Positions 18,774 through 27,704 of a stretch of DNA of 64,000 nt are shown piece by piece. The stretch lies in assembly GCA_943331105.2 (NCBI GenBank), contig CALQKH020000010.1, positions 62,001 to 126,000 of the forward strand, in the 5' to 3' direction. Source of the DNA: Akkermansia muciniphila. Its GTDB lineage: Bacteria > Pseudomonadota > Gammaproteobacteria > Burkholderiales > Burkholderiaceae_C. Numbering within the stretch: position 1 is the stretch's first letter; each line of letters starts with the position of its first letter. A model generated the notes under the pieces. That model saw nothing but the letters and a program-made list of their open reading frames with translations. It made no database searches and was not told the origin of the DNA. Both the position numbers and the translations under genes were made by a program.

Positions 18774-19451
18774 TTAGCCCCTGCCAGGAATCTTGGCGAG
18801 CAGTTGCTCCACATGGACTTTGGCTTTTTCGAGAGAAGCCATGCTGCCTGTGAGGTACATGCGGCCGCTGGCACCGATCATGCTGCACTCGACCAAGGTC
18901 AGGTCGGGGGCGACTTTTTCGGCTTCGTTGGCCATGTGGGCACCGAACAGTGCCGGAGCCACTTCCATCAGCAACATGTTCTGGCCCGGGAGCACCATGC
19001 TGGCTTGGCGTGTGCGGTTCATCAGCACGGCGTGCTGATCGGTCACGTTTTCCAGAATGTCGCTGTACAGCAGGTGTGGGCGCAGCTGGTCTTCGGCTTT
19101 CGCGCCCATCCAGTCCAAAATGACTTGTCCTGCACGCTGAAGCGCTGCGCTGTCGTTGCTGTGCAACTCCAGGACGCCGAACTGCCGCTCCACAGCCAGG
19201 ATGCCCGGTTCCAGCGTAGGTTCAGCCTTGAGGGCCAGATCGATCACCCGTTGAATGGAAAGTCCGGGCGCGATCTCGACCAGCAGCGCGTTGGTGCCTT
19301 GCATCGCCACGTAGCCACGAGCGCCCAAAGGCGAACTCATCCACGAGGAGAACTGGGGCTGCAAGTCGTTGAGCGTCAGGTAGACCCGAAGCTCAGCTGC
19401 CGGCTTGGTCGGCGGTTTGGCGGGCGCGGTGGCTTTTTTGCTTGTGGCCAT
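18774..19451 (-). CDS. BMC shell protein, tandem-domain BMC-T type (paralogue 1) with K/A/P-rich N-terminal tail
   Basis: Two BMC-like repeats: LLVEIAPGLSIQRVIDLAL...VERQFGVLELHS and LLMEVAPALFGAHMANEAEKVAPDLTLVECSMIGASGRMYLTGS. Confidence 0.85.
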   Translation of the reverse strand: MATSKKATAPAKPPTKPAAELRVYLTLNDLQPQFSSWMSSPLGARGYVAMQGTNALLVEIAPGLSIQRVIDLALKAEPTLEPGILAVERQFGVLELHSNDSAALQRAGQVILDWMGAKAEDQLRPHLLYSDILENVTDQHAVLMNRTRQASMVLPGQNMLLMEVAPALFGAHMANEAEKVAPDLTLVECSMIGASGRMYLTGSMASLEKAKVHVEQLLAKIPGRG

Positions 19452-19480: not shown

Positions 19481-19753
19481 TCATTTGCCGTCGAAGGCTT
19501 TGGACACGTCAGCGTGTGGACGTGGGATGACGTGGCAAGACACCACTTCACCGATTGCGCCTGCGGCTTCTGCACCGGCTTCGGTGGCGGCTTTAACGGC
19601 ACCTACGTCGCCCGAAACGATGATGGCGACGAGACCGCCACCGACTTCTTTTTTGCCAACGATGTTGACGTTGGCGGCTTTGACCATGGCGTCAGCGGCA
19701 GCGAAGGCAGCAACATAACCTTTGGTTTCGATCATTCCGATAGCTTGTGACAT
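19481..19753 (-). CDS. BMC shell hexamer protein (BMC-H; PduA/EutM/CcmK family)
   Basis: [60 protein letters not shown]..., a textbook BMC domain. Confidence 0.97.
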
Positions 19754-19835: not shown

Positions 19836-20105
19836 TCAACGCATCGGTGTGGGGGTGTCGTAGTTGTCGAGTGAAGCAATGATCAAGGCATCGGCCACCA
19901 CACGAGGATGCGCTGGGGCGAACCACCACGCGGCGGGTGCGCCGATGGTGATCATCACGCGCTCGCCAATGCCGCAACCCATGGGGTCGTAGCAGACGAC
20001 CACGTCCTTGGGGTAGTCCAGTTGTACCTCCAGCAATGCGCCAGCGGGCAATTCGGGCAGGCGCTTGCTGGCGACAATGCGGCCGATCACGGTTCCTGTT
20101 TTCAT
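19836..20105 (-). CDS. BMC vertex pentamer protein (BMC-P; EutN/CcmL family)
   Basis: MKTGTVIGRIVASKRLPELPAGALLEVQLD...VVCYDPMGCGIGERVMITIG. Confidence 0.93.
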   Translation of the reverse strand: MKTGTVIGRIVASKRLPELPAGALLEVQLDYPKDVVVCYDPMGCGIGERVMITIGAPAAWWFAPAHPRVVADALIIASLDNYDTPTPMR

Positions 20106-21064
20106 GTTTTGCTTCCTCGGTCAATGGTGATGCCGCGCTTGCGCAGGGCCTCTTTGCCCAAAGGGGTCAAGACCGCCTTGGGGTGGATGCGAACGGTTTT
20201 GACGCTGGCTGGCAAGGTTTTGAGCAGCTTCTCGCCAATCACGCCTTTGAGCTCAGGTACGGATTCGCTCGCCTTGTGCGCCTGCAGGTCGCAACGCTCG
20301 TCTTTGCATTCACAGGCTTTGCCTTCTTTGCAAGACGGGCAGCAAGCGGCCGGGTCGATGGCGGTGGTGGCGGCCATGGCCGAGGCACCGCCGGATGAAC
20401 CACCAGTAGCACCACCTGATGCCGCCACGGCTTTCACCGCCGCTTCGTCCACACGCATGTCAAAACGCAGCAAACCCGATTGCGCCGCTTGCAACAAGGC
20501 CGGGCTGGCGGCCAGGCGCTTGAACAGGTCGGTCAGCGCGGCGGCTTGCGCGGCCGTGCCCACACGCAAGGGCACCACCACGCCGATGGGACTGGCAGTG
20601 GCCTTGTTGGGTGTTGTTGGCTTGGGCATGCCCACTTGCTTCCAGTAAGCGTCTTTGCGGGCGATCAGGCCATTGCGAATTTGGTAGACATCGGTGCCGT
20701 CATAGGTGCCGGTCTGGCCACCGGGCAGCGGCACGGACACTTTGTAGTTTTGCACCACGGTCTGGCCCAGCACGTTCATGTGCGAGTCCGAAAACTTGGG
20801 GCCAGTGGGGCTGGCAAAGCGTTCTTTCAAAAATGCCAAGCAGGCTTCGCGGCCGTTGAGCACGCGCGAATCGGGCAGGATCCAGACCACATCGGGCGCA
20901 AAGCAGGCCACGATGGCCTCGGCGCTCATGGTCTCGTAACCGGCTTCAAAGCGGCGCATCAAAGCAGCCACAGACGCGTCAGCCGCCGGGGCTGGGCTGG
21001 ACGCAGCGCCCAAAGCTTTTCGCACCTGCATGCGAATTTGCTCGCGCAAGGCGTCTGTGCTCAT
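20102..21064 (-). CDS. BMC-associated multidomain protein: N-terminal encapsulation-peptide-like helix, SnoaL-like (NTF2-fold) domain, Cys-rich segment, C-terminal EutT-like LTPxxxExLxxRGI tail
   Basis: MSTDALREQIRMQVRKALGAASSPAPAA + RRFEAGYETMSAEAIVACFAPDVVWILPDSRVLNGREAC... + CCPSCKEGKACECKDERC + VLTPLGKEALRKRGITI; 4-nt overlaps with both neighbours. Confidence 0.75.
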   Translation of the reverse strand: MSTDALREQIRMQVRKALGAASSPAPAADASVAALMRRFEAGYETMSAEAIVACFAPDVVWILPDSRVLNGREACLAFLKERFASPTGPKFSDSHMNVLGQTVVQNYKVSVPLPGGQTGTYDGTDVYQIRNGLIARKDAYWKQVGMPKPTTPNKATASPIGVVVPLRVGTAAQAAALTDLFKRLAASPALLQAAQSGLLRFDMRVDEAAVKAVAASGGATGGSSGGASAMAATTAIDPAACCPSCKEGKACECKDERCDLQAHKASESVPELKGVIGEKLLKTLPASVKTVRIHPKAVLTPLGKEALRKRGITIDRGSKT

Positions 21065-21675
21065 GCAGCACCTCCTGCGTCGCGGATCACAGCCTCGGCC
21101 ACTGCCGCTGCAGCACGCACGTCCGACGCATTGCCCGACAGGTACAAGCGACCAGCTGGGCCCATGAAGCGGCAGTCGATCAGTTTCACGTTGGCGGCCT
21201 TCTCGGCCTCGTTGGCCACCAGCAGCGCATACGACGAGGTGGTCATCTCCATGATGTAGAGCGACTCACCGGGCAAGAGCATGCTGCCGGCCTTGCTGCG
21301 GTTGATCAAAAACGCGTGGTAGCCATCGACCCGGTCGATCACCTTGGAGGCCAGGATCTCGGGCTTGAGCACGCTTTTCTCGCTCACACCCATGGCATCC
21401 AGCACAGCAGCCCCGGCCGACTTGACCGATGAGGAGGACTGGCCGTGGAACTCCAGGTAACCAAACTGCCGCTCAACCACCAGGTTGCCGGGTTTGACAT
21501 CGTCGTGCTTCAAAGCGATGTCGGTCAACCACTCGATGTCCATGCCGGGGGCGACTTCGATCACCATGGCGGCGTCGTTGTGGCGCGGCAAGAAGCCACG
21601 GGCCGTCGAGCCCAGCAAACACATCAACTGTGGCTGCAAGCGGTCCAGAAAAATGTAACTGCGCAAAGTGGACAT
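21061..21675 (-). CDS. BMC shell protein, tandem-domain BMC-T type (paralogue 2)
   Basis: Shares LxxLQPQ...VIEVAPG...VERQFGYLEFHG and VANEAEKAANVKLIDCRFMGPAGRLYLSG with 18774-19451. Confidence 0.87.
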   Translation of the reverse strand: MSTLRSYIFLDRLQPQLMCLLGSTARGFLPRHNDAAMVIEVAPGMDIEWLTDIALKHDDVKPGNLVVERQFGYLEFHGQSSSSVKSAGAAVLDAMGVSEKSVLKPEILASKVIDRVDGYHAFLINRSKAGSMLLPGESLYIMEMTTSSYALLVANEAEKAANVKLIDCRFMGPAGRLYLSGNASDVRAAAAVAEAVIRDAGGAA

Positions 21676-23197: not shown

Positions 23198-24256
23198 TTA
23201 ACGGCGCGCCGCAGCCGAAGCCACGGCGTTCAGGTCCACGTTTTCCAGCGCGCTGAAGATGGCTTCCACCGCTTGCTGTTCACGCGGGCTGGCCGCTTGC
23301 ATGCGGGTGGTGTCGAGCAACTGGCGCATCACCGAAGGCTGGCCACCTGAAGCTGTACCCGCGGCTGCGCCAGGGTTCAGGGTGGGCACAAAGCTGCCGC
23401 AGGTCATGCGCTGACCGGCGCGGTAGTGCGGCGCGTAGTCAAACACGGCGTAGTGCTGCGTAGCGCAGTTATCCCACATGGCCAAGGAGTCTTTTTCCCA
23501 ACGGAAACGCACCATGAATTCGGGTTTTTTCACCCACTCATAGAGCATGTTCAGTACGGCCTCGGACAGGTCCATGTGCATGCCCAGCAAGCGCTTGGTC
23601 CAGATCGAATTCACAAACAAAATCTTGCGGCCGTTGAAGGGGTGGGTGATCACGGCAGGGTGCGACACCGTGGGCGTGTTTTCGATCATCTTGCACTCTT
23701 GCTCGCTGGCCGTGACCAGCATGCCGCTCTTGATAGAAGCACGTTTGGCAAAGCGCTCGCTGGCGTTGATGCGGCGAAAGTGCCAAGGCAGGTCGTGGTC
23801 GGCCTGCAGGCCTTCAAGCATTTGCTGCATGCCAGGATTGAGCGCATCGTAGGCTGCACCTGCGTGCATCCACATGGTGTCGCCGCCCGATGGGGGCAAG
23901 TCGGTGATGCGCAAAATCGACACCATATTGGGCTTCTTGCGGAAGGTCACGTCGGTGTGCCAGCGGTCGGTCTCGGGTGCTTCGTTGCCCTGGTTGGAAA
24001 TCAGTTGGATTTGGGGGTGACCCTCGATGTGCGGGAAGAATTCGTGCTGTTCCATTTCGCCAAAGTTCTGCCCCAGACGGATGTAGGCTTCGGGCTTCAA
24101 GGCCTGCTTGCGAAAGAACACGACGCCGTGTTGCCACAGCGCTTTTTTGATTTCTTCGTAGACGTCCTCTGAGCGGGTGTTGTTCAAGTCAACGCCGCTG
24201 ATCATGCCGCCGATGGTGGGCGTCATGGGGTCAACTTGAATGTGACGGAAGTTCAT
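23198..24256 (-). CDS. TauD/TfdA family Fe(II)/2-oxoglutarate-dependent dioxygenase with about 57-aa C-terminal extension
   Basis: WHTDVTF (HxD) and CATQHYAVFDYAPHYRAGQRMT (distal His and Arg); GGMISGVDL N-terminus. Confidence 0.93.
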   Translation of the reverse strand: MNFRHIQVDPMTPTIGGMISGVDLNNTRSEDVYEEIKKALWQHGVVFFRKQALKPEAYIRLGQNFGEMEQHEFFPHIEGHPQIQLISNQGNEAPETDRWHTDVTFRKKPNMVSILRITDLPPSGGDTMWMHAGAAYDALNPGMQQMLEGLQADHDLPWHFRRINASERFAKRASIKSGMLVTASEQECKMIENTPTVSHPAVITHPFNGRKILFVNSIWTKRLLGMHMDLSEAVLNMLYEWVKKPEFMVRFRWEKDSLAMWDNCATQHYAVFDYAPHYRAGQRMTCGSFVPTLNPGAAAGTASGGQPSVMRQLLDTTRMQAASPREQQAVEAIFSALENVDLNAVASAAARR

Positions 24257-24289: not shown

Positions 24290-25045
24290 TCATTGCCAGT
24301 GCAGCAAACGGCGTTCAACCCAGTTCATCAGCTTCATGATCAGCACCCCAATGAGCGCCAAATCAAACAGCAGCGACCAGACGCCGTTGACGTTGAATGT
24401 GGATCCCAGATAAGCGAGTTGTTGCCCGAGGCCACGCTCAGAAGCAATGACCTCTGCGCCCACCACGCCCAGCAAGGCGTAGATCACACCGAGGCGCAAT
24501 CCTGAGAAAAGCACCGGCACAGCGCCCGGCAATGTGACCGAGAAAAACATCTGCCGACTGCTGGCCCCCAAAGTGCGCGTGAGCGTCACATGGTCTTGGC
24601 TGACGCCCCGAATACCGGCGACGGTGCTGGACAGCACGATGAAAAACGTCAGCGAAACGCCCAGAGCGATCTTGGATCCGATGCCCAAACCAAACCACAA
24701 AATGAACAACGGGACCAGCGCAATGCGCGGCAGTACATTGAAGGCAGAGATGTAGGGGTCGCAAAAGGCCTCGAACTTGGGCCAAGTGACAAAGGCCAAG
24801 CCCGTGATCATGGCAGCGACCGAGCCAATGGCGAAAGACGCGAACACGGCCAACAGCGTGTAGCCCAGATCGCCCCACAAGCGGGCGTTGGTCAGGTTGT
24901 CTAGGGTGAAAAGGATGATACCGAGTGGACTGCCCATGAAACTCGGATCAACCCACCCGATTCGTGCAGCCCACTCCCACAGCCCCAACACGAAGCACAG
25001 GAACAGCGCATGCAGTGACAGCGTACGAAGTGTTTCACCCCTCAT
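24290..25045 (-). CDS. ABC transporter permease, SsuC/TauC-like
   Basis: BPD_transp_1-type permease; EAA-like region GVSQDHVTLTRTLGASSRQMFFSVTLPGAVPVLFSGLRLG; start MRGETLRT. Confidence 0.88.
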   Translation of the reverse strand: MRGETLRTLSLHALFLCFVLGLWEWAARIGWVDPSFMGSPLGIILFTLDNLTNARLWGDLGYTLLAVFASFAIGSVAAMITGLAFVTWPKFEAFCDPYISAFNVLPRIALVPLFILWFGLGIGSKIALGVSLTFFIVLSSTVAGIRGVSQDHVTLTRTLGASSRQMFFSVTLPGAVPVLFSGLRLGVIYALLGVVGAEVIASERGLGQQLAYLGSTFNVNGVWSLLFDLALIGVLIMKLMNWVERRLLHWQ

Positions 25046-25799
25046 GGTGCACCCACCCTTCTTCGAGATGTTTCCAGACTTGAGCGTAGGTGCGGTGGAA
25101 GTCATCGCTGGTCTGCAGCTCACGGATGGAGCGCGGACGTGCCAGCGGCACCTGCACATCGGCCACGATGCGACCTGGCCTGGAGGACATCACCATCACC
25201 CGGTCGGCCAGCGCGACCGCCTCTGACAAATCGTGCGTCACGAAAAGCACCGTTCGGTTACCGTCCTGACACAGCTGCAGCAACAGGTCCTGCAGCTGCA
25301 GCTTGGTTTGCGCGTCCAGTGCACCAAAGGGCTCATCCATCAGCAGCAAGGGTGAGGGCATGGCAAAGGTGCGGGCCAGGGCCACGCGCTGGCGCATGCC
25401 ATGCGACAACGCCTTGGGCAGGCGGTTTTCGGACCCACTGAGCCCGACCTTCTTGAGCATCAATGCGGCAAGCTCCCGGGCATCCGCGATGGGCATGCCG
25501 CGCACTTTCAGTCCAAAGGCTGCGTTGTCCAGTGCATTGAGCCAGGGAAACAGACTGTCGCGTGCCAACATGTAAGCCACGTTGTGGCTGCCGAGCGCAG
25601 GCTTTTCGCCCGCCACCAGCAGACGTTGACCTGCAGGCAAATCCACCAGCCCCGCGCAAAGGTTGAGCAAGGTGGTCTTGCCACAGCCACTGGGGCCAGC
25701 GAGCGCGACAAACTCCCCGGCCTTGACGTGCAGGTCCACGCCTTGCAATACCAAATGGTTGCCGTCAAAGCTCAGGTCGATGCGCTGTGCGTCGATCAT
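25035..25799 (-). CDS. ABC transporter ATPase, SsuB/TauB-like
   Basis: Walker A GPSGCGKTTLL, Walker B LLLMDEPFGALD, H-loop VTHDLSEA. Confidence 0.92.
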   Translation of the reverse strand: MIDAQRIDLSFDGNHLVLQGVDLHVKAGEFVALAGPSGCGKTTLLNLCAGLVDLPAGQRLLVAGEKPALGSHNVAYMLARDSLFPWLNALDNAAFGLKVRGMPIADARELAALMLKKVGLSGSENRLPKALSHGMRQRVALARTFAMPSPLLLMDEPFGALDAQTKLQLQDLLLQLCQDGNRTVLFVTHDLSEAVALADRVMVMSSRPGRIVADVQVPLARPRSIRELQTSDDFHRTYAQVWKHLEEGWVHHEG

Positions 25800-25833
25800 G
25801 AATGCGCCCTGGAAAAATCGCTGCTGTGGAGCT

Positions 25834-26832
25834 TCAGGGCAGGACTGCAGGCGCCATCTCTACTCTGCCCGGCAAGAGCTTGTTTTCGCTCATGGCATTG
25901 GCCACCGCTTGCATGGCGGGCACGGTGCCACGGGCCTTGAAGTTGCCGATGGAGTTGCGCAGGCTCACCTCAGCGATCTGGTCTGCGTTGGGCAATTGCA
26001 GGGCAAATGTCTTGCGCAGGACCTCCAGTGTCTTGCCGAAGTTGGCCGGGTTGGCAATGAAAGCCTCCGACAATTCCAGCATCCTGCGAATGGCGGCCAC
26101 CGTTTGCGGATTAGCTGCCGCCCATTCGGTCTTCACCGCCATGGCGCCGGCGCCTCCCCGGGTCGCCAGCATGCTCTTGGGACCTTGTCCTTTGCGGGGG
26201 TCTACCACCAGGCGGCAGGCCTTCAGTACTTCGCACATGCCGTCGGCGGGTGGGAAGGTCATGATCAGATCGACTTGGCCGCGCGTGAGCGCAGGAAAGG
26301 CGGTGTCGGGCGCACCCACGGCCACAAAGGTCACGTCGTTCGCGGTCAGGCCCACATCGGCCAGCATGTCGATCACCTGAAATTCAGCGCCGGAGCCGCG
26401 TTGGGTCACGCCGATTTTTTTACCTTTGAATGACTTGACCACACCGGGGTAGCCTTCTTTTTCTGTTTCCAATTCGGTTTTTGCACCTGCAGCCATGAAA
26501 AACACTGGATCGACGAAGCCCGCGGCGATGATGGAAATGGGGGCCTTGCGGGCAACGGCTGCAACCGCCACTTCGGTCGGGCCAAAAAACACTTCGATGT
26601 CACCCGAGAGCATGGTCTGCATGCCCAGTGGCCCACCCGCTATGGTGCGCAGTTCGCAGCGAATGCCCGCTTGCTGGCAAAAGCCTTGCTCTTGGGCCAC
26701 GCGCACCAACAGATTGCCAGTGCCAGGATAGTCTTGGAAACGCACCACGGACTGCGCCATGGCGCTGGCACCGAGGGTCAAGGCGATGGCACCCAGGGTG
26801 GTGCGTACAAGAGTAGGGGCAGAAAATTTCAT
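25834..26832 (-). CDS. ABC transporter substrate-binding protein, SsuA/TauA/NMT1-like
   Basis: Signal peptide MKFSAPTLVRTTLGAIALTLGASAMAQ; GKKIGVTQRGSGAEFQVIDML. Confidence 0.87.
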   Translation of the reverse strand: MKFSAPTLVRTTLGAIALTLGASAMAQSVVRFQDYPGTGNLLVRVAQEQGFCQQAGIRCELRTIAGGPLGMQTMLSGDIEVFFGPTEVAVAAVARKAPISIIAAGFVDPVFFMAAGAKTELETEKEGYPGVVKSFKGKKIGVTQRGSGAEFQVIDMLADVGLTANDVTFVAVGAPDTAFPALTRGQVDLIMTFPPADGMCEVLKACRLVVDPRKGQGPKSMLATRGGAGAMAVKTEWAAANPQTVAAIRRMLELSEAFIANPANFGKTLEVLRKTFALQLPNADQIAEVSLRNSIGNFKARGTVPAMQAVANAMSENKLLPGRVEMAPAVLP

Positions 26833-26857
26833 GTCGTCTCCAATGTGGTTCTTTGAC

Positions 26858-26975: not shown

Positions 26976-27704
26976 ATGCCATCGCCACCCCCGAAAACAC
27001 CGACTAAAGGCCGTACCAACAGCAAGCGCGCTGCTGTTTTCAAAGCGCTGGATGTAGATGAACTGAAGAAAGACTGGGCGCAGAATTCAGGCCTGACAAC
27101 ACGCTCGACCCAAGCCCTTCAAAGTGTGGGCGTGCTGCGTACTTGGAACGATGGCCAGGTCTTGCTCAGCCGGGGCCAACCCACCTCGGCGGCATGGCTG
27201 GTTGTCAGTGGCCGCGTGCGCATCAGCGTGATCACCTCGGAGGGCGAGGAGCAATTGCTGCGCTGGATGTTGCCGGGTGAAATCGCGGGCTTGAGCTCGG
27301 TGTTTGCCCAAGCCACCAATCCGGCTGACATGGTTTCCCATGGCTTGACGCAGGTCTTACACATCGAACGTGCCCGATTGATGGAACTGATTGGGCGCGA
27401 TCCGGTGGTTGCGCTGGACCTTCTTCGCATCCTGGGCCTGCGCATCAACCAACTGTTTGACACCCTTGCTGATCGCGGTATACACAGCCTAGAGCAACGC
27501 GTGTGGGCCACACTGGAGCGAATTGCCAAATTCAACAGCGTGACCGTACCCGACGGTGTGATGCTGCGCGTGAGCCAGTCCGACCTGGCCCAAGCCGCCT
27601 CCGCATCACGCCAGCGCGTCAACCAGCAGCTGAGGCACTTTCAAGATCAGGGCTTGATCCGGCTGGGTTACCGCAACATTGTTTTGCTGCGGCGTAGTTT
27701 TTAG
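26976..27704 (+). CDS. Crp/Fnr family transcriptional regulator, without FNR-type cysteines
   Basis: cNMP-binding fold followed by HTH VSQSDLAQAASASRQRVNQQLRHFQDQGLI; no Cys in the protein. Confidence 0.88.
   Translation: MPSPPPKTPTKGRTNSKRAAVFKALDVDELKKDWAQNSGLTTRSTQALQSVGVLRTWNDGQVLLSRGQPTSAAWLVVSGRVRISVITSEGEEQLLRWMLPGEIAGLSSVFAQATNPADMVSHGLTQVLHIERARLMELIGRDPVVALDLLRILGLRINQLFDTLADRGIHSLEQRVWATLERIAKFNSVTVPDGVMLRVSQSDLAQAASASRQRVNQQLRHFQDQGLIRLGYRNIVLLRRSF

Follow-up and report, generated by a model that had tools for sequence, protein, structure and literature searches.

A SnoaL domain-bearing protein as a probable shell-cargo linker in a BMC operon with a TauD-like dioxygenase gene

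For most BMC types, the question of how cargo is tethered to the shell is open. In the ethanolamine metabolosome of Salmonella, EutQ without residues 9-41 (H1/H2) stays with the cargo and the shell separates from the cargo, and EutQ without residues 62-99 (H3/H4) stays with the shell; H1/H2 bind the shell, H3/H4 binds the EutC encapsulation peptide in vitro, and the protein dimerises via its extra domain, the cupin (PMC12487888). PduM carries a signal helix at its N-terminus, and core and shell come partly apart when it is lost (PMC9132943, PMC12108088); according to a paper of 2025, no sequence homologues of it are known beyond Pdu compartments (PMC12108088). In addition, an RMM-type locus on pRHL2 of Rhodococcus jostii RHA1 has the order ALDH, BMC-T, a 145-aa "hypothetical protein" (WP_011600239.1), BMC-P, BMC-H and BMC-T.

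The protein discussed here is encoded in a window of 64,000 nucleotides, the whole stretch of DNA that was analysed, and consists in order of an EP-like helix, a SnoaL/NTF2 domain, a small alpha/beta segment, a Cys cluster and an EutT-like tail. It resembles EutQ (N-terminal region 1-99) in that its tail module corresponds to EutQ ~1-46, H1/H2 included, a helix is proposed to engage cargo and an extra globular domain lies in the same chain; however, the order is permuted with the tail at the C-terminus, SnoaL stands in place of the cupin (the C-terminal cupin acetate kinase domain of EutQ gave no hit in the 320-aa protein), and a middle module and the Cys cluster are present. WP_011600239.1 has the same slot between BMC-T and BMC-P and likewise a helix, a middle and a tail, but it has neither SnoaL nor Cys cluster, the putative homology of its middle is by position only, and its locus contains an aminotransferase and no TauD. 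PduM is similar in its gene lying directly upstream of the BMC-P gene, its N-terminal signal helix, its partial requirement for linking core and shell (PMC9132943, PMC12108088) and, less surely, its C-terminal tail-like motif, whereas its middle is not detectably related and it lacks SnoaL and the Cys cluster. The EutT N-terminus has the tail module with a CCxxC nearby, although there the module is N-terminal and a cobalamin adenosyltransferase domain follows, none being found in the window protein. SnoaL_2/ketosteroid-isomerase (KSI)-like proteins share the fold and the family score, but their catalytic Tyr/Asp are not conserved here and the domain would be embedded in a BMC linker. The architecture is absent among the described BMC proteins found in the literature and databases searched, within which the earlier note's statement that it knew of no described BMC enzyme built in this way still stands, and the protein would belong to the known class of BMC shell-cargo linkers.

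The operon runs from right to left as ABC importer, TauD-like dioxygenase, CoA-acylating ALDH, BMC-T, the 320-aa protein, BMC-P, BMC-H and second BMC-T (Table 1). The genes are tightly packed, and that of the 320-aa protein overlaps by 4 bp both the upstream BMC-T stop and the downstream BMC-P start. The 320-aa reading frame with at least four segments, as the earlier note had drawn it, proved exact in its start and stop; it lies on the minus strand, the note having named no strand.

Table 1. Features of the BMC operon and modules of the 320-aa protein (window coordinates)
Feature	Position	Strand	Evidence
320-aa protein gene (P0001), probable linker	20102..21064	-	ORF start and stop
N-terminal EP-like helix, aa 1-20 (MSTDALREQIRMQVRKALGA)	21005..21064	-	AF2 helix 3-17; kept in SnoaL-less orthologs; dN/dS 0.10
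SnoaL/NTF2-like domain, aa 30-146	20627..20977	-	PF12680 E=7e-15; Foldseek KSI fold; dN/dS 0.139
Middle module, aa 160-212, predicted beta-alpha-alpha-beta	20429..20587	-	AF2; dN/dS 0.059
Cys cluster, aa 237-263 (CCxSC-x5-CxC-x4-C-x4-H)	20276..20356	-	Core cysteines invariant in 21 orthologs
Tail module, aa 270-317; proposed shell anchor	20114..20257	-	Homologous to EutQ/EutT N-termini; PduM C-terminus less surely
BMC-T (CcmP-like)	21061..21675	-	NF053796 E=3e-64, under equivalog cut-off
BMC-P pentamer (EutN_CcmL)	19836..20105	-	PF03319 E=9e-13
BMC-H hexamer	19481..19753	-	PF00936 E=1.5e-26
Second BMC-T (CcmP-like)	18774..19451	-	NF053796 E=1e-49, under equivalog cut-off
CoA-acylating aldehyde dehydrogenase, EP-like C-terminal helix	21685..23178	-	PRK13805/EutH_ACDH E<1e-100, under equivalog cut-offs
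TauD-like Fe(II)/2OG dioxygenase, ~70-aa C-terminal extension	23198..24256	-	PF02668 E=4e-59
SsuABC/TauABC-like ABC importer	24290..26835	-	Permease 24290-25159, ATPase 25035-25799, SBP 25834-about 26835

Modules and relatives of the 320-aa protein

The SnoaL-like part named in the earlier note is borne out by SnoaL_2 (PF12680) at aa 37-136, with 55.9 bits against a curated cut-off of 27, and by Foldseek, which assigns the AF2 model to the ketosteroid-isomerase/NTF2 fold (prob 1.00) with hundreds of KSI-like structures, the lengths among the matches listed being about equal to the SnoaL part. Beyond this region the Pfam cut-off is reached nowhere in the 320-aa protein, and in the segmentwise check that had been proposed neither the middle module nor a PDB sequence and fold search of middle plus tail gave a significant match. 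AF2 models built with 21 orthologs, of modest confidence (pTM 0.30-0.38), place a helix at 3-17 and a small alpha/beta unit at 162-215; the NTF2-like domain and the tail are predicted with confidence, and confidence is low across most of aa 203-267. The first residues of the predicted helix are conserved in the 21 orthologs, and its amphipathicity is not above that of shuffles (p=0.21). C241, C242, C245, C251 and C253 are invariant in the 21 sequences, SnoaL-less forms included.

Purifying selection acts on all modules, the median dN/dS being 0.10 for the helix, 0.14 for SnoaL, 0.06 for the middle module, 0.08 for the Cys cluster and 0.10 for the tail, against 0.24 and 0.28 for the linkers between them. 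The middle module is thus the most conserved part, and the lowest values are those of middle module, Cys cluster and tail. Since the value of SnoaL is higher than these core values, SnoaL is maintained where present, yet held less tightly than the core.

Scanning 85,488 genomes for relatives yielded 39 loci. Besides the window, 28 loci (L002-L029) have the full architecture, with two more cut by contig ends, nearly all from Limnohabitans, Comamonadaceae or other Burkholderiales, and in the 28 the slot BMC-T / linker / BMC-P / BMC-H / BMC-T2 is kept where the contig permits; identity to the window is mostly 90-100% for shell proteins and 67-93% for the 320-aa protein. The 320-aa protein is rare in the sampled order, with one clear genome among 400 drawn, and in the family it occurs in 2 among 201. 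Apart from the genome itself, the middle plus tail profile gave chance-level matches only in the order-wide search, tblastn of plasmids with the linker core gave none, and surveys of related genomes with TIGR02536 and PF15953 gave zero positives.

SnoaL itself is optional. In L031, L032 and L033, three separate MAGs, the same operon encodes in an intact reading frame a product of about 185-202 aa, consisting of helix, short linker, middle, Cys cluster and tail without SnoaL. A diverged BMC of the same family (G573; TauD 45%, ALDH 49% and BMC-T 67% identity) has in the linker slot a 155-aa protein made of helix, middle and tail only, and the RHA1 protein likewise consists of helix, middle-like part and tail without SnoaL. 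The Cys cluster is missing from the G573 and RHA1 counterparts. The RHA1 middle was not found by a model built from the window and G573, and its putative homology is one of position and pattern and not of score. Because both outgroups are SnoaL-less, the probable history is a gain of SnoaL in the Limnohabitans-type clade, followed by loss or swapping out. The linker-core tree unites the three short forms with support 1.0, whereas the TauD plus ALDH tree places L033 apart from L031 and L032; this conflict suggests allele exchange at the linker gene, and loss of SnoaL along a single vertical lineage was dropped on the same ground.

Some further observations concern the related loci. In RHA1 (L077, 10001-15490) there are two copies each of the BMC-T, linker, BMC-P and BMC-H genes, their protein accessions being identical, and the same EP-like peptide ends ALDH and an aminotransferase.

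The tail module

Almost all proteins in which iterative HMM searching finds the tail module of about 45 aa belong to BMCs: it lies at the N-termini of EutT and EutQ, less surely at the C-terminus of PduM, in a PduL extension and in a malate-dehydrogenase-like fusion. The C-terminus of TIGR02536 (NCBIfam) matches the tail weakly (E=0.016 for the window protein and 0.0014 for G573), and the EutQ N-terminus matches G573 at 0.043. The HMM was seeded with window-type, G573 and RHA1 (RMM) tails only and searched against 8033 six-frame ORFs, drawn both from BMC loci and from other DNA. Among held-out sequences, the first pass gave a Rhodococcus oxybenzonivorans BMC protein (2e-5), an Acetoanaerobium EutT-like protein (0.0066), a malate-dehydrogenase-like protein beside a BMC-T (0.019), the C-terminal extension of an Acetoanaerobium PduL (0.022), and PduM of Klebsiella (0.038) and Listeria (0.063). 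The second pass reached the N-terminus of E. coli EutT, which was not among the seeds, at 4e-4, in agreement with the EutT-like tail of the earlier note, and the third reached held-out E. coli EutQ (0.0075) and Klebsiella PduM (0.0028). The above-noise matches sit in BMC operons, and as the ORF set is BMC-rich, the E-values and not the location carry weight. With seeds left out, window-only seeds gave G573 at 0.13 and window plus G573 gave RHA1 at 1.6e-5; the matches were nearly top-ranked with weaker scores.

In the alignment the module corresponds to EutQ residues ~1-46, and residues 9-41 (H1/H2) lie inside it. PduM belongs here less surely and is the least secure of the assignments, its match being confined to the tail and unstable (in late passes E stays at 0.09-0.7 for two of the three PduMs); the Pfam PduM model PF15953 had no hit in the 320-aa protein, and homology to PduM along the whole length was dropped, as the middle module yields nothing. 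Through the tail, EutT, the PduL extension, the RMM hypothetical protein, the SnoaL protein and, less surely, PduM are linked to EutQ, for which experiments have mapped the shell-binding helices; the module therefore predicts shell anchors across many BMCs which are testable with single fusions. As separate cases, a PduL phosphotransacylase in Acetoanaerobium (L094) carries the module as a C-terminal fusion, and a malate-dehydrogenase-like protein encoded beside BMC-T in L063-L066 carries it N-terminally.

The linker model and its alternatives

The 320-aa protein is probably a shell-cargo linker, or assembly factor, of an RMM-like aerobic metabolosome enclosing the TauD-like dioxygenase and the CoA-acylating ALDH, because the tail is homologous to the shell-binding helices of EutQ and SnoaL-less orthologs exist. 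The chain would be read as a cargo-side helix, an optional SnoaL, the middle module, an optional Cys cluster and a shell-side tail: the C-terminal module of about 45 aa, as a homologue of EutQ H1/H2, would dock on the shell from within, the N-terminal helix would co-assemble with the EP-like helices that end ALDH and TauD, and the middle module with flexible Ala/Gly/Pro linkers would span the gap. In the Limnohabitans clade SnoaL would have been inserted between helix and middle module, and it would be an optional functional domain that the linker takes into the compartment, comparable to the cupin acetate kinase of EutQ. Module boundaries, the optional nature of SnoaL, operon position, tail homology and selection were observed; binding of shell and cargo, encapsulation and any activity of SnoaL are predictions. 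The operon slot is constant in the 28 full-length loci as far as their contigs reach, the three SnoaL-less loci, G573 and RHA1 pRHL2, where ALDH is also upstream. A linker acquiring an optional enzyme-like domain is of interest in itself.

The earlier note had proposed a missing catalytic step or a scaffold. The scaffold fits SnoaL-less orthologs and the tail's homology to EutQ, but the catalytic step as a conserved function does not fit three orthologs, G573 and the RMM protein without SnoaL, nor the replaced KSI residues. That the protein is chiefly an enzyme, with SnoaL supplying a required hydrolase, cyclase or isomerase step on an activated intermediate, is accordingly unlikely, though SnoaL is under purifying selection (0.139) and shares the motifs FSD and KDAYWKQ, at 35-40% identity, with standalone Cupriavidus proteins encoded 3-4 kb from TauD-like dioxygenase genes (L035-L038), which makes a link of SnoaL to dioxygenase products possible. 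Against it, SnoaL is missing in the three same-operon orthologs, G573 and RHA1, and whole-genome searches of L031-L033 (MAGs) and G573 found no close SnoaL elsewhere in these Proteobacterial genomes (best 30% identity, E=0.002). Moreover, the catalytic residues Tyr16 and Asp40 of KSI align to Phe and Leu, and Asp122, presumably the counterpart of KSI Asp103, is only partly conserved. SnoaL as an essential step was rejected as a core function on account of the SnoaL-less orthologs; in the linker model it is an optional passenger, possibly catalytic. In L035 and L036 the standalone Cupriavidus gene directly follows an amidase gene.

Within the linker model, it is conceivable, if doubtful, that SnoaL is only a dimeriser or spacer cross-linking linkers without catalysis. 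NTF2-like domains usually pair, and its optional occurrence is in line with this, as is the dimerisation of EutQ through its extra domain (PMC12487888); however, specific motifs are kept down to 35-40% identity in standalone proteins, and the SnoaL-less form apparently functions with no dimeriser. Still less probable is a reading centred on the Cys cluster, in which the protein would bind a metal or act in redox chemistry (Zn, Fe or Fe-S) on behalf of the dioxygenase or of sulfite, or would be a remnant of an EutT-like adenosyltransferase: the five cysteines are invariant even in SnoaL-less forms, and EutT too has a CCxxC after the tail module (ACCELC in E. coli EutT), but the G573 and RHA1 counterparts lack the cluster, the 320-aa protein gave no hit for an adenosyltransferase domain, and the order of tail and cluster is reversed relative to EutT.

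Cargo enzymes and compartment chemistry

In the TauD-like dioxygenase, with residue roles as in E. coli TauD, the iron ligands H99, D101 and H255 and the 2-oxoglutarate arginine R266 are kept, as are R270 and His70, and three positions of the taurine site are changed (Y73F, N95T, F206W). Taurine as substrate was rejected, as the three changes argue against it. The substrate may reasonably be guessed to be some other sulfonate, the SBP of the importer being nearest to the SsuA family (E=2.5e-17, under the cut-off), and a carboxylate (TfdA-like) substrate is still conceivable. Neither a phosphotransacylase nor an alcohol dehydrogenase was seen in the operon. The ~70-aa C-terminal extension is absent from E. 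coli TauD, conserved in G573 (45% identical) and ends in an EP-like helix. Since the amphipathic moments of the ALDH and TauD C-terminal helices are not significant by shuffling (p 0.05-0.26), the presumed EP status of these helices rests on position and precedent.

The TauD-like dioxygenase is the proposed signature enzyme of the BMC and apparently O2-dependent, and a BMC with an apparent signature enzyme of this kind is the further interest of the locus. No paper describing a TauD-containing BMC was found, supplementary BMC catalogues lying outside that search, and earlier naming of the locus type is possible. Rather improbable as a whole is a reading as an O2-dependent organosulfonate metabolosome, in which TauD would hydroxylate a sulfonate to an aldehyde and sulfite inside the shell, SnoaL would act on the product, for example by splitting an aldehyde-sulfite adduct that would otherwise re-form in a closed space, and the tail would be a BMC-wide shell anchor common to EutQ, EutT, PduM and others.

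Finally, a divergent Crp-family regulator gene (26976-27704, +) adjoins the ABC importer, is kept in most related loci and likely regulates the BMC operon, and in L016 (16139-17103) second copies of BMC-H and BMC-T2 lie about 4 kb downstream of the operon.
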